Virus record (IMG/VR): IMGVR_UViG_3300035183_000214 | Span: 1-26,047 of that record | Reading direction: 5' to 3' (one strand) | Length of the DNA stretch: 26,047 nt | DNA from: a virus | Shown: piece after piece, positions 4,438-8,716 of the stretch | Numbering within the stretch: the first letter of the stretch is position 1 | How the letters are laid out: the number at the start of each line of letters is the position of its first letter | Notes under the pieces: model-generated | What the model was told of the DNA's origin: nothing | Database searches by the model: none | The model's input: the letters and a program-made list of their open reading frames with translations, nothing else | Made by a program: the position numbers and the translations under genes

Positions 4438-5100
4438 TTAATAAAATCCTTCTTTTGTAAAATAATTTTCTTTCGGAAGTTGCTTTATAAAGTCTCTAAT
4501 TGTTCTTGCATCGCTTTGCCTAAAACCTGTTAATTGATAAAGTTGCCAAGCAATAGCTAGTGCCATAACCAAATCATCTTTCGCTCCTTTGTCGGCTTGT
4601 GCTTTCCAAGAGGATGAAGTTTGAACTACAACAAATGAATACAACTCATTTATCGTCTCCTTGTCGTGTATTCGTAAAACTTTGTTATCAATCGCCTGTT
4701 TTAAGTCTTGGAGCATCTTTGGTCTTGTTGACGAGGAGGTAGTCCAGCCATATTGTACGGCCTCTGGTGGATTTTCTCTTCCAAATGAAGGCATCTTAAA
4801 TAAGTCGTATTTATTAAGCCTATTTAGTGCCGCAAGCCTGTCCATCTCAAACGCTCCTCCGTTGTTTCTTTCGTATGCTACAACTGGTTTAATTCCTGTC
4901 TTATCATGTATTTTTTCTAAAATTGGCGCCAAAAGATTTGTAAACTCTGTCGTTGTGATGGGCGAGTGATAAACTAATGGAACATCTAACTTTGTTTTTG
5001 AAAGAAACTGAGCGGCAGTATAATCTCCGCCTCCTGATGCAGTATCAACACCAACAACAATAAATTCTCCTAGTTCTATTGGTCGGTATTGCCTAAACAT
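4438..5100 (-). CDS. Terminase large subunit, nuclease domain as a separate gene
   Basis: This 220-residue protein is the C-terminal RNase H-fold nuclease half of a large terminase, which cuts concatemeric DNA at the start and end of packaging. The catalytic acids are visible: D19 in VVGVDTASGGGDYTA, E77 in VVAYERNNGG, and D175/D176 in KDDLVMALAIAW. There is no Walker A or B motif; those are in the gene at 6302-7135. Its N-terminus (MFRQYRPIELGEF) begins just before the first nuclease strand, so the break is in the linker between the two domains. It follows a DNA methyltransferase gene whose stop codon is in the same frame, one codon before this ATG, and no Shine-Dalgarno sequence is visible, suggesting re-initiation. 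Functional packaging would need this product to act with the separate ATPase. Confidence 0.85.
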   Translation of the reverse strand: MFRQYRPIELGEFIVVGVDTASGGGDYTAAQFLSKTKLDVPLVYHSPITTTEFTNLLAPILEKIHDKTGIKPVVAYERNNGGAFEMDRLAALNRLNKYDLFKMPSFGRENPPEAVQYGWTTSSSTRPKMLQDLKQAIDNKVLRIHDKETINELYSFVVVQTSSSWKAQADKGAKDDLVMALAIAWQLYQLTGFRQSDARTIRDFIKQLPKENYFTKEGFY

Positions 5101-5103
5101 AGA

Positions 5104-6309
5104 TTAAAATAATGGTTTTTGGATACTACCAACTCTAGCTTCGGCTATTTTGGCATGCTCCTCCTCTAATTCTATTCCGATGTAATTTCTGCCTGTTTTT
5201 TTAGCCGCCATACAGGTTGTACCAGAACCAGCAAATGGGTCTAAAACTATTCCACCTGTTGGGGTTTTGGTTAGGATACATAGATACTCCATAAGTTTAA
5301 GAGGTTTGACGGTAGGATGATTATTAACAACTCCACCCATATTTCTTTCACTTTTTGATGTTTTTGCTATATAAAAGAAACGAGAAGCATTTATCCCACT
5401 CTGTTTATCTAATATATAACACGGACATTCGGGATTGGTGTGGATTCTTCCTGATTTAGCATCATTATAATTGCTTGGAGCTTGTGGTTGATTGTTTTTG
5501 ATAAATCCCTCAACTTTATACGATTTTCCTTTATAAGAATAAGGTTCTTTTTTTTCTTTTCCTTCTATTATCTCATCACAAATACATTCTAAAATAACAT
5601 TAGCTGGGAAGCGACCTTTTGAGACACTGTCAGGAGCAGTTTTAATTCTTCCCCCATCTATATTTAACCCCGCCACACCCCACCTCAAAGCATTATCAGA
5701 ATAACTACCTTCATTTGGTTTCATAGCCATAATAATTGGCTCCCAAGCAGGTTTTAAGCCGTGAGATTTCCAGCCGTTCCAGAGATTAGCTTCGGGGGTT
5801 GCAGGTTTAGTTATTTTTGGAGGTGGAGCATTATAAATTTTATAATCACTGAATTGTGGTGTCCACGCTTTTGGTTGTCTTTGGGAATATGGTTTGCCAT
5901 CGGGAGAAATCATTTCCCCGATTATCTCCCTTTCTTTTCCAGCTTTCTTATCTATCTGCTTACTAATATCGGTTGCCTTAGGAAAACCTTGTCCATATAA
6001 CCACATTAAAGTATCTTTAATAGCCCATCCTGCATCCTCTAATCCACACGCTAACCTATGCCAAGTTCGTGTCCCACCGAAGCAAAGTAAAGTGGCTCCT
6101 GGCTTTGCTACCCTCAACGCCTCAACCGCCCACTGTCTTGTCCACTCTTGGTATTTTTTAAAGTCTGTCCCAAATGAATCCCATTCGTTTCCCATGAACG
6201 ACAAAGCGTAGGGGGGATCGCAAATTACACTATCTATAACACAATCTGGTATTTCTTTTAAGACTTCAAAAGCGTCCCCGTGTATGATTTTATTCAAAAA
6301 TTTATCCAT
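5104..6309 (-). CDS. DNA methyltransferase (N6-adenine or N4-cytosine, beta-class order) inserted between the TerL halves
   Basis: A 401-residue SAM-dependent DNA methyltransferase. The catalytic motif IV DPPY is at residues 31-34, followed by a long variable region that would hold the target-recognition part, HPTVKP near residue 333, and the SAM-binding motif I DPFAGSGTT at 357-365, followed by NYIGIELEEEHAKIA. The order IV before I is that of the beta class. DPPY is compatible with N6-adenine or N4-cytosine methylation; the target base cannot be decided. No restriction endonuclease gene is adjacent, so it is likely a solitary phage methylase that protects the genome or marks packaging sites. 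Its ATG overlaps the TerL ATPase stop by 8 nt (ATGGATAA), and its stop is 3 nt from the TerL nuclease ATG, so it sits exactly at the TerL interdomain junction. Confidence 0.9.
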   Translation of the reverse strand: MDKFLNKIIHGDAFEVLKEIPDCVIDSVICDPPYALSFMGNEWDSFGTDFKKYQEWTRQWAVEALRVAKPGATLLCFGGTRTWHRLACGLEDAGWAIKDTLMWLYGQGFPKATDISKQIDKKAGKEREIIGEMISPDGKPYSQRQPKAWTPQFSDYKIYNAPPPKITKPATPEANLWNGWKSHGLKPAWEPIIMAMKPNEGSYSDNALRWGVAGLNIDGGRIKTAPDSVSKGRFPANVILECICDEIIEGKEKKEPYSYKGKSYKVEGFIKNNQPQAPSNYNDAKSGRIHTNPECPCYILDKQSGINASRFFYIAKTSKSERNMGGVVNNHPTVKPLKLMEYLCILTKTPTGGIVLDPFAGSGTTCMAAKKTGRNYIGIELEEEHAKIAEARVGSIQKPLF

Positions 6310-7135
6310 ATATCAAATCATTTTTAATTGGTTCTTTTATGTTTTCCAAATACCATTTCAACGCTAACTTATCAAAATAGTTTTGTCCGCTTGAAATAAA
6401 GGCATCAATGTCAGTCTCGGGGTATTCTTGAACAAAAAACTCTTTTAGTTCAAGTTTTTTTTGATTTAAGAAGTCCTGTGAATAAAAATCAGAAGCCTTA
6501 TAAAATAAAGGATTAAACGGCCTCTCCCCCCTCTTACACTCCTCCCAAAAAGTCTTAAAGAAGTTGAAGCCGTTGGCTGTTGTCTCAATGAAAATCTTCC
6601 CCTCTGGCACCACCGCCTGTAGAGCAGAGCGTAAGATTGCTTCTGAATCTTCATAGAAAGCGAATTCCGATAAATGAAGTCCAGTTAAGCTTTTACTTCT
6701 TCCAACCTCTTTATTCTCTGCAGTTCCAATTTTGTAAGTGGAATTTATCACCTCATTGTAAAGTTCGTATTTAGAGTTGTATTTTAGATTCAATTTTGTC
6801 TGACTTATCTCCTCAAACGACTTAATATAAAACTTTACTCTTGCCAGTAAATCTTCTGCGTTATCTGATTTATCAGCTATAACCATGGAATATGAATTGT
6901 CTTTCAGAAAAAAATCAGTTGCAAAGATAGCAAGAATGATTGATGAAAAGCCTAATTGTCTTGATTTTAAGATTACATCCCGCCCTGTTGCTTTGTTTAG
7001 AATAAAATCCTCCTGTATCCTCCAATGATTTGTATCATCATAAAATCTTTTAATAGTACCGTCTTTTGCAACAAGCATAAAGTTATCTTTGATGAAGTTG
7101 ATATATACCTGGGCTTTGTCTCTAAAGTTCGCCAT
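6302..7135 (-). CDS. Terminase large subunit, ATPase domain as a separate gene
   Basis: A 277-residue protein equal to the N-terminal ATPase motor of a large terminase, which powers DNA translocation into the prohead. Motifs: a Walker A-like loop VILKSRQLGFSS (residues 54-65, the variant R-x-x-G form common in TerL), Walker B with the catalytic Glu at LTGLHLSE (151-158), and the coupling motif ETTANG (185-190). The protein ends 87 residues after motif III, with no nuclease acids; those are encoded at 4438-5100. ATPase plus nuclease lengths add up to a normal complete TerL, so nothing seems lost. The start ATG overlaps the small-terminase stop by 14 nt. The stop overlaps the methyltransferase ATG, so translation is coupled through the inserted gene. 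Confidence 0.85.
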   Translation of the reverse strand: MANFRDKAQVYINFIKDNFMLVAKDGTIKRFYDDTNHWRIQEDFILNKATGRDVILKSRQLGFSSIILAIFATDFFLKDNSYSMVIADKSDNAEDLLARVKFYIKSFEEISQTKLNLKYNSKYELYNEVINSTYKIGTAENKEVGRSKSLTGLHLSEFAFYEDSEAILRSALQAVVPEGKIFIETTANGFNFFKTFWEECKRGERPFNPLFYKASDFYSQDFLNQKKLELKEFFVQEYPETDIDAFISSGQNYFDKLALKWYLENIKEPIKNDLIYG

Positions 7136-7680: not shown

Positions 7681-8716
7681 AACTAAGATTAATTTTTATA
7701 GCTTTCAAGATTTGTATTGCCACCTGCGGGACTATGGCGTTACCAAGTGCTTTTAACCTTTCCCGCCTGTGTCTTGCAGAGCTAATGGTAATTCTGTCCA
7801 TTTGTCTGGAAAACCCATCATCCATTCCACGAAGGCAGGTTGCAAACGCAACCTCTTTCCAGTCTCTTTCCCAATCTTTGCTACTTGATCTCTCATTTTC
7901 AATTTCGGTGCTTTGGCATTCCAGTATTTGTCGTCTGTTTTTTCTCCTCCCACTCCCTCGCTTGCTGATGGGGTTTTGAGCATCTGGATTTGTTCCGCCA
8001 ATACCCTCCCGCCCTTCTTGTTCGGTCTGCTTCCAGGATTGCCTACTCTTGGGGTTGGGGGCATTGCTATTGTCTTTGGAACATCTTGTGACTGATGTCC
8101 CGTTGCTCCTTTCCAATCCCTTGCTTGGCTTGTAGGCAATAATCCAGACTCTATCCCTTCGGTGCGGGGCATTGACGGCACAAGCCGGAATAATAAGCGA
8201 TTGTAAGGAGTAACCACAGCCTTCCAATTCAAGGCACAACTCTTCGAATACCAATCCGCCTTCAATAGTAAGTAATCCATAAACATTTTCAGCGATGACC
8301 CATTGCGGTTTGATAAGTTGAATAGCTCTAAACATTTCTGGCCAGAGGTAACGATTATCTTGCGTGCCTCGTCTTTTTCCAGCTTGGGAGAAAGGTTGGC
8401 AGGGGAAGCCTCCAGTAAGGATACATAATCCTTCAAATCCCCTCTCCAACTGCCCCTTGTGTTCGGATTTCTCTTCATATCCTTTTTCAATCTCAAATTT
8501 CTGCCCTGCCCAACTGCATCTATTGCTTGTGGTGTCGGCAATAAACTCCCGAATGTCGCCCCAGTATTCTCCTTCTGGCCAGTGCTTTTTAAGAACCGCT
8601 TGGCAGAATGGGTCGATTTCAACAAATATGTGTTTGGCATTTTCTTTGCCATAGACTTGGTCTATTGCATAACTAAACCCGCCAATACCTGCAAATAAAT
8701 CATAATGAATAATCAT
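7679..8716 (-). CDS. dcm: DNA (cytosine-5)-methyltransferase
   Basis: A 345-residue C5-cytosine DNA methyltransferase. Motifs in order: SAM-binding motif I DLFAGIGGF (6-14), GDI (53-55), catalytic motif IV GGFPCQPFS with Cys106 (102-110), motif VI ENV (143-145), motif VIII HRRDRVWI (185-192), a hydrophilic variable region (about 195-290) that should contain target recognition, and motif X RLKALGNAIVPQVA (320-333). All catalytic elements are intact. Unusual is a ~37-residue polar segment between GDI and motif IV and the very polar target region; both coincide with conserved-looking stretches of the overlapping +1 frame (7753-8652). No ribosome site is obvious before the ATG at 8716. It probably protects phage DNA from host restriction. 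It is flanked by 16-bp direct repeats. Confidence 0.9.
   Translation of the reverse strand: MIIHYDLFAGIGGFSYAIDQVYGKENAKHIFVEIDPFCQAVLKKHWPEGEYWGDIREFIADTTSNRCSWAGQKFEIEKGYEEKSEHKGQLERGFEGLCILTGGFPCQPFSQAGKRRGTQDNRYLWPEMFRAIQLIKPQWVIAENVYGLLTIEGGLVFEELCLELEGCGYSLQSLIIPACAVNAPHRRDRVWIIAYKPSKGLERSNGTSVTRCSKDNSNAPNPKSRQSWKQTEQEGREGIGGTNPDAQNPISKRGSGRRKNRRQILECQSTEIENERSSSKDWERDWKEVAFATCLRGMDDGFSRQMDRITISSARHRRERLKALGNAIVPQVAIQILKAIKINLS
7753..8652 (-). CDS. Overlapping +1-frame ORF inside dcm with LPTP-type motifs (299 codons)
   Basis: This long frame lies entirely within dcm, shifted by +1. Its translation looks like a real protein family and not random shadow sequence: it has repeated 'LLPTP' modules (GSLLPTPQAIDA, then GSWRGDLKDY; later ESGLLPTSQARDWKGATG and MPPTPRVGNPGSR), a segment SGQKCLELF followed by WYSKSCALNWK and RLLFRLVPSMPRTEG, and a C-terminal LQPAFVEWMMGFPDKWTEL. 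I recall these motif strings from many phage and metagenomic proteins annotated as hypothetical or methylase-associated. Possible starts: ATG 8652, or ATG 8478, which has AAAAAGGA just before it though with short spacing. Whether it is translated is unknown; it could also be expressed by frameshift from dcm. Function is not known. Confidence 0.4.
   Translation of the reverse strand: MAKKMPNTYLLKSTHSAKRFLKSTGQKENTGATFGSLLPTPQAIDAVGQGRNLRLKKDMKRNPNTRGSWRGDLKDYVSLLEASPANLSPKLEKDEARKIIVTSGQKCLELFNLSNRNGSSLKMFMDYLLLKADWYSKSCALNWKAVVTPYNRLLFRLVPSMPRTEGIESGLLPTSQARDWKGATGHQSQDVPKTIAMPPTPRVGNPGSRPNKKGGRVLAEQIQMLKTPSASEGVGGEKTDDKYWNAKAPKLKMRDQVAKIGKETGKRLRLQPAFVEWMMGFPDKWTELPLALQDTGGKG

Follow-up and report, generated by a model that had tools for sequence, protein, structure and literature searches.

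The dcm locus and its two reading frames

The window analyzed here is the complete stretch of virus DNA in IMG/VR record IMGVR_UViG_3300035183_000214 (positions 1-26,047; 26,047 nt). Its minus strand encodes dcm, a C5-cytosine methyltransferase large subunit in frame 0 (hereafter alpha), and a second ORF in the +1 frame that is nested within it (hereafter beta; Table 1). With PCQ and ENV motifs inside a PF00145 domain, alpha belongs with the C5-cytosine DNA methyltransferases. The beta frame is free of stop codons from 7753 to 8661 (302 codons), its start being uncertain between the ATG codons at 8652 and 8640. No Shine-Dalgarno sequence was found in the window before alpha or before either candidate beta ATG.

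Table 1. Features of the nested methyltransferase locus, in window coordinates
Feature	Position	Strand	Evidence or remark
Alpha, C5-cytosine methyltransferase large subunit, frame 0, 345 aa	7679..8716	-	PF00145, E=1.4e-39
Beta, +1-frame ORF nested in alpha, 299 aa from ATG	7753..8652	-	phrog_1008, 1e-31
Beta stop codon	7753-7755	-	
LLPTP of N-terminal beta module, within the III-IV insert of alpha	8530..8544	-	
Catalytic PCQ of alpha (motif IV, Cys106)	8396..8404	-	invariant in A4
ENV of alpha (motif VI, residues 143-145)	8282..8290	-	
Predicted beta hairpin, residues 140-159	8176..8235	-	pLDDT about 85-87 by 10-residue block
LPTP-type modules of beta, residues 171-267, between hairpin and motif IX	7852..8142	-	
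Recurrent beta module PTPRVGNPGSRPNKKGGRVL	7999..8058	-	found in other phages here and at the motif III-IV site
Alpha region predicted disordered, residues 203-282	7871..8110	-	pLDDT <50; expected site of the small (target-recognition) domain
Motif IX of beta, LRLQPAFVEWMMGFPDKWT, residues 268-286	7795..7851	-	best local profile match to 31 single-frame methyltransferases
Motif X of alpha, RLKALGNAIVPQV, about residues 320-332	7721..7759	-	profile alignment and sequence; beside/beyond the beta stop

The original prediction, made from the letters of the window, had described a candidate dual-coding region in dcm. All of the amino acid strings that it quoted are present in the +1 ORF, and the polar insert that it had noticed in the methyltransferase, after GDI (motif III) and ahead of motif IV, overlaps the LLPTP module of the +1 frame. 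Its proposal that the +1 product belongs to a recurrent phage family agrees with database searches: tblastn returned matches in 58 phage genomes, and the product falls within phrog_1008 of PHROGs (1e-31), a family labeled merely 'DNA methyltransferase'. Neither Pfam nor NCBIfam has a model that matches beta.

At lower window positions, the large terminase subunit looks split (4438-7135, minus strand), with an N-terminal ATPase part at 6302-7135 and a C-terminal part at 4438-5100. The ORF between these parts encodes an N6/N4-type DNA methyltransferase (5104-6309; PF01555, 3.9e-39).

Openness of the +1 frame

The length of the +1 frame was compared with that in 200 synonymous-codon shuffles, which kept the dcm protein and its codon usage. 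The longest +1 run in these shuffles averaged 99 codons and reached at most 165, against the 302 codons observed, about three times the mean; the +2 frame of the window (47 codons) matches the expectation from the same shuffles. The long open frame originally reported is therefore real.

A set of 81 distinct homologous loci was gathered solely with the frame-0 protein, as selection for an open +1 frame had to be avoided. The +1 frame is open over the overlap in all 81, with a median longest run of 292 codons, while the +2 frame has a median of 55 and the antisense frames run for 52-131 codons. Frequent stops in homologous dcm loci, which the original prediction had named as counter-evidence, are thus not found in this set. 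When both searches are pooled, the shuffle test gives p<=0.005 in 134 of 143 complete loci. By comparison, among 31 ordinary methyltransferases of the single-frame type, taken from bacterial genomes, the median +1 run is 55 codons and none is significant.

Chance openness through GC content or codon usage is ruled out for the window; at about 7 loci, most of them rich in GC, it could not be told apart from a constrained frame. Resampling the +1 similarity pair by pair gave no usable signal, since shuffling each sequence independently strips shared ancestry and the +2 frame scored likewise high.

Selection on both frames

Substitution patterns provide further evidence. The share of substitutions at codon position 3 is about 0.6 in the methyltransferase-only flanks and 0.37-0.45 inside the overlap, where the share at position 1, the wobble position of the beta frame, is higher. 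The same region stands out in four-fold synonymous differences within the L103 group (21 sequences). These amount to 0.46-0.50 upstream of the overlap and drop to 0.05 immediately ahead of motif IV. Inside the overlap most bins lie at 0.01-0.28, the one containing PCQ reaching 0.40, and beyond the beta stop the values are back at 0.38-0.40; in control single-frame enzymes they are flat at 0.66-0.70. In this group the predicted beta start consists of AAGGAG, 9 nt and ATG, and it is located at the onset of the constraint, 16 codons ahead of PCQ. A good Shine-Dalgarno sequence with an ATG for beta is found at many loci. The residues of the module PTPRxxNPGSRPNKKGGKIL are kept at 83% in the +1 frame versus 40% in frame 0, the former figure being biased upward because the module was picked by its +1 pattern.

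Excess constraint at frame-0 synonymous sites is therefore present and confined to the overlap. Because homologues keep the +1 frame open and these synonymous sites are constrained within the overlap, both frames are under constraint, as had been supposed. Two outcomes had been left standing, an overlapping gene pair or a conserved mis-frame family in the databases; constraint in both frames upholds the former and disfavors the latter. On this sequence evidence, the dcm/+1 locus is a real nested overlapping gene pair of alpha and beta, the latter presumably translated.

Division of the methyltransferase motifs

A frame-0 (alpha) family profile, when aligned to single-frame methyltransferases, matched motifs I-VIII (E=6.8e-45) and motif X (0.002) and skipped motif IX: it covers canonical columns 86-251 and 363-395, not 340-358, which hold motif IX. 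Single-chain enzymes have motif IX between VIII and X in the same chain, and the profile alignment did not find it there in frame 0. The C-terminal end of the +1 product, FVEWMMGFPDKWTEL, has its best alignment with precisely this motif. The beta-family profile likewise gives its best local match on motif IX (RLxPxFVEWMMGFPxxWT versus RLTPREcARLQGFPDxF), at a modest E=0.046 and with a score equaled by 1 of 150 column shuffles.

A census of 229 related loci found motif IX in exactly one frame at 216: in the +1 frame only at 179, in frame 0 only at 37, and in both at none. The remaining 13 had it in neither frame by the strict pattern used, most of these being regex misses or contig ends. Motifs IX and X both lie in the +1 frame in 14 of the relatives; the window beta ends before motif X. 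The +1 protein thus carries a segment resembling the motif IX that is missing from frame 0, a point that goes beyond the original prediction, and alpha and beta look like subunits of one enzyme rather than a pair of unrelated proteins.

Structural models

The AlphaFold2 model of alpha has a large domain with pLDDT of about 90 or more, and its best PDB match is M.HhaI (VIA-align: Z 21.6, rmsd 2.9, 213 aligned). Modeled alone, alpha is disordered over residues 203-282, with only a floppy linker at the position of the small domain, a region that may fold on binding beta. Residues 68-90, the insert between motifs III and IV, are also predicted to be disordered. Modeled by itself with AlphaFold2, beta is predicted poorly (mean pLDDT 57, pTM 0.25) apart from the hairpin at residues 140-159 and the helix of motif IX, and neither Foldseek nor VIA-align found a PDB match for this low-confidence model. 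Because the beta model is poor and has no PDB fold, a target-recognition role for beta is drawn from position and analogy; by that analogy, beta probably takes part in sequence recognition.

Distribution and evolutionary forms

The nested arrangement occurs in phages of Paenibacillus, Lacticaseibacillus, Bacteroides, Synechococcus and Stenotrophomonas, and on plasmids of Leptospira and an archaeon. The archaeal plasmid with the pair (L319) is Methanomethylovorans hollandica pMETHO01. A beta-profile search of 296 Bacteroidota genomes gave 3 matches, so that beta is rare in this set of chromosomes.

Actinophages display two further states. In one, represented by Firecracker gp6/gp5, Phanphagia 65/66 and phiBT1, frame 0 ends after motif VIII and the +1 ORF continues with LPTP modules followed by motifs IX and X, aligning colinearly over IX-X (E=8e-4). 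As judged from sequence, this state shows the beta family to be a genuine protein in a stretch free of any overlapping frame. In the other, frame 0 includes motifs IX and X as a fusion and a shortened +1 ORF persists; four such loci (L221, L228, L229 and L234) still have a +1 ORF with LPTP modules. This second state links both parts as one putative enzyme. It also suggests a role for beta beyond carrying motif IX, which cannot be its sole function because some actinophage loci keep the +1 ORF with motif IX in frame 0.

LPTP modules that are near-identical were also observed in different phages at two sites of the overlap, the III-IV insert and the VIII-IX region (window 7999-8058; L091, L014, L017 and L012).

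A probable two-subunit methyltransferase and alternative readings

We consider it very likely that the nested same-strand pair encodes the two subunits of a single DNA-cytosine-C5 methyltransferase, with translation, complex formation and activity inferred from the features described above. Alpha and beta would be translated separately from one transcript. Alpha, bearing motifs I-VIII and X, would form the catalytic large domain, and beta would be a separate polypeptide contributing motif IX and probably elements of target recognition, namely the hairpin and the variable LPTP modules. By docking on alpha, beta would complete the small domain and the DNA-binding cleft, as in M.EcoHK31I. The enzyme would most likely methylate phage DNA against host restriction.

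It is extremely improbable that alpha alone is translated and that its amino acids and codon usage merely keep the +1 frame open and conserved. The conserved alpha motifs PCQP, ENV and PHRRDR do dictate part of the +1 sequence, and most records encountered annotate alpha alone; however, synonymous shuffles never reached the observed run, synonymous sites are frozen within the overlap only and not in the control enzymes, and the beta modules, although picked by their +1 pattern, keep +1 residues (0.83) better than those of frame 0 (0.40). The actinophage +1 ORF moreover runs far past the frame-0 stop, and alpha by itself would be without motif IX. Such an artefact was ruled out by the shuffles, the codon-position test and the single-frame controls.

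Ribosomal frameshifting from alpha, yielding an alpha-beta fusion and no free beta, would agree with the fused single-ORF forms of actinophages and with the order of the frames, which is the same. We nonetheless regard it as highly improbable: synonymous constraint starts near the beta start, about 100 codons ahead of any position at which a shift would be useful, which argues that beta is read in its own right from near that start; many loci offer beta a good ribosome-binding site and ATG of its own; and a fusion at the window locus would stop before motif X. That beta is real and independent of the methyltransferase, for example as a regulator or counter-defence factor, is also quite unlikely. 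Its persistence at some actinophage loci with motif IX in frame 0 and the lack of a fold match for beta would fit this reading, but motif IX lies in beta exactly where alpha is without it and never in both frames, fused forms exist, and M.EcoHK31I provides a precedent for a divided enzyme.

Within the two-subunit reading, a more tentative possibility, somewhat less likely than not, is that beta is the target-recognition subunit and that the LPTP modules are exchangeable specificity cassettes moving between the III-IV and VIII-IX sites. The modules appear as if they move between sites while staying open in both frames. If this were so, one DNA cassette would alter specificity in one frame and be a tolerated linker in the other, and a two-frame modular recognition system would extend across phages of many bacterial phyla and archaeal plasmids.

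Annotation of nested methyltransferases

Many database entries hold alpha only or beta only. Actinophage records annotate two overlapping 'DNA methylase' genes or the N-terminal half alone (L182, 1158-2184; L180, 1089-2034; L181, 1227-2274). The record of phiBT1 gp9.1 remarks that it 'may be inactive', probably because the +1 C-terminal half is unannotated. A Pseudomonas aeruginosa plasmid (L321, 1075-1761) shows the reverse situation, with beta alone annotated as a hypothetical protein and the alpha frame open across it and unannotated.

A whole class of phage methyltransferases is thus probably annotated with half of the enzyme. In this large phage and plasmid C5 methyltransferase class, whose frame 0 ends in ...DDGxxxxxDRLKALGNAIVPQ, the annotated protein is without motif IX, which by the present evidence would reside in a nested +1-frame gene missing from the annotation. 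The long ORF cloned or annotated alone would be half an enzyme, and this would account for phage methyltransferases regarded as 'inactive' and for specificities that could not be assigned. As an overlap that is long, deeply conserved and represented by many natural sequences, the pair is also a good test of two-frame coevolution. No paper on the nested phage pair was found in the open-access literature searched; the kind of enzyme is already known but obscure, and the spread and age of its nested phage form seem little recognized.

Comparison with known methyltransferases

The large domain of alpha resembles that of M.HhaI and single-chain C5 methyltransferases. Unlike the window pair, the single-chain enzymes encode motif IX and the small domain together in one frame, without an open +1 frame.

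The enzyme M.EcoHK31I recognizes YGGCCR, and its small subunit is likewise encoded within the gene of the large subunit, in another reading frame. Of its two polypeptides, the large one has motifs I-VIII and X together with the predicted target-recognition domain and the small one has motif IX (PMC3404938). By this described motif split the window pair is alike: alpha has motifs I-VIII and X without IX, and motif IX lies in a second, smaller polypeptide, the beta match taken alone being modest (E=0.046). It differs in that the pair is found in a phage with no linked restriction enzyme recognized, contains extra LPTP modules in two places, and has an alpha without a folded target-recognition domain in the AlphaFold2 model of alpha alone.

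Paenibacillus phage Shelly gp55/gp56 has the same +1 nesting and a beta annotated as a hypothetical protein. At least this one GenBank phage record thus includes the nested ORF, under the label 'g55 internal gene'; the literature searched gave no published study of the two genes.

A different division is seen in M.AquI (CYCGRG), whose two polypeptides are divided in the variable region, with motifs IX and X in the small subunit. Unlike M.AquI, the window beta has motif IX only and alpha retains motif X. The actinophage genes Firecracker gp6/gp5, Phanphagia 65/66 and phiBT1 9.1 with its unannotated ORF do resemble M.AquI, with halves that overlap.
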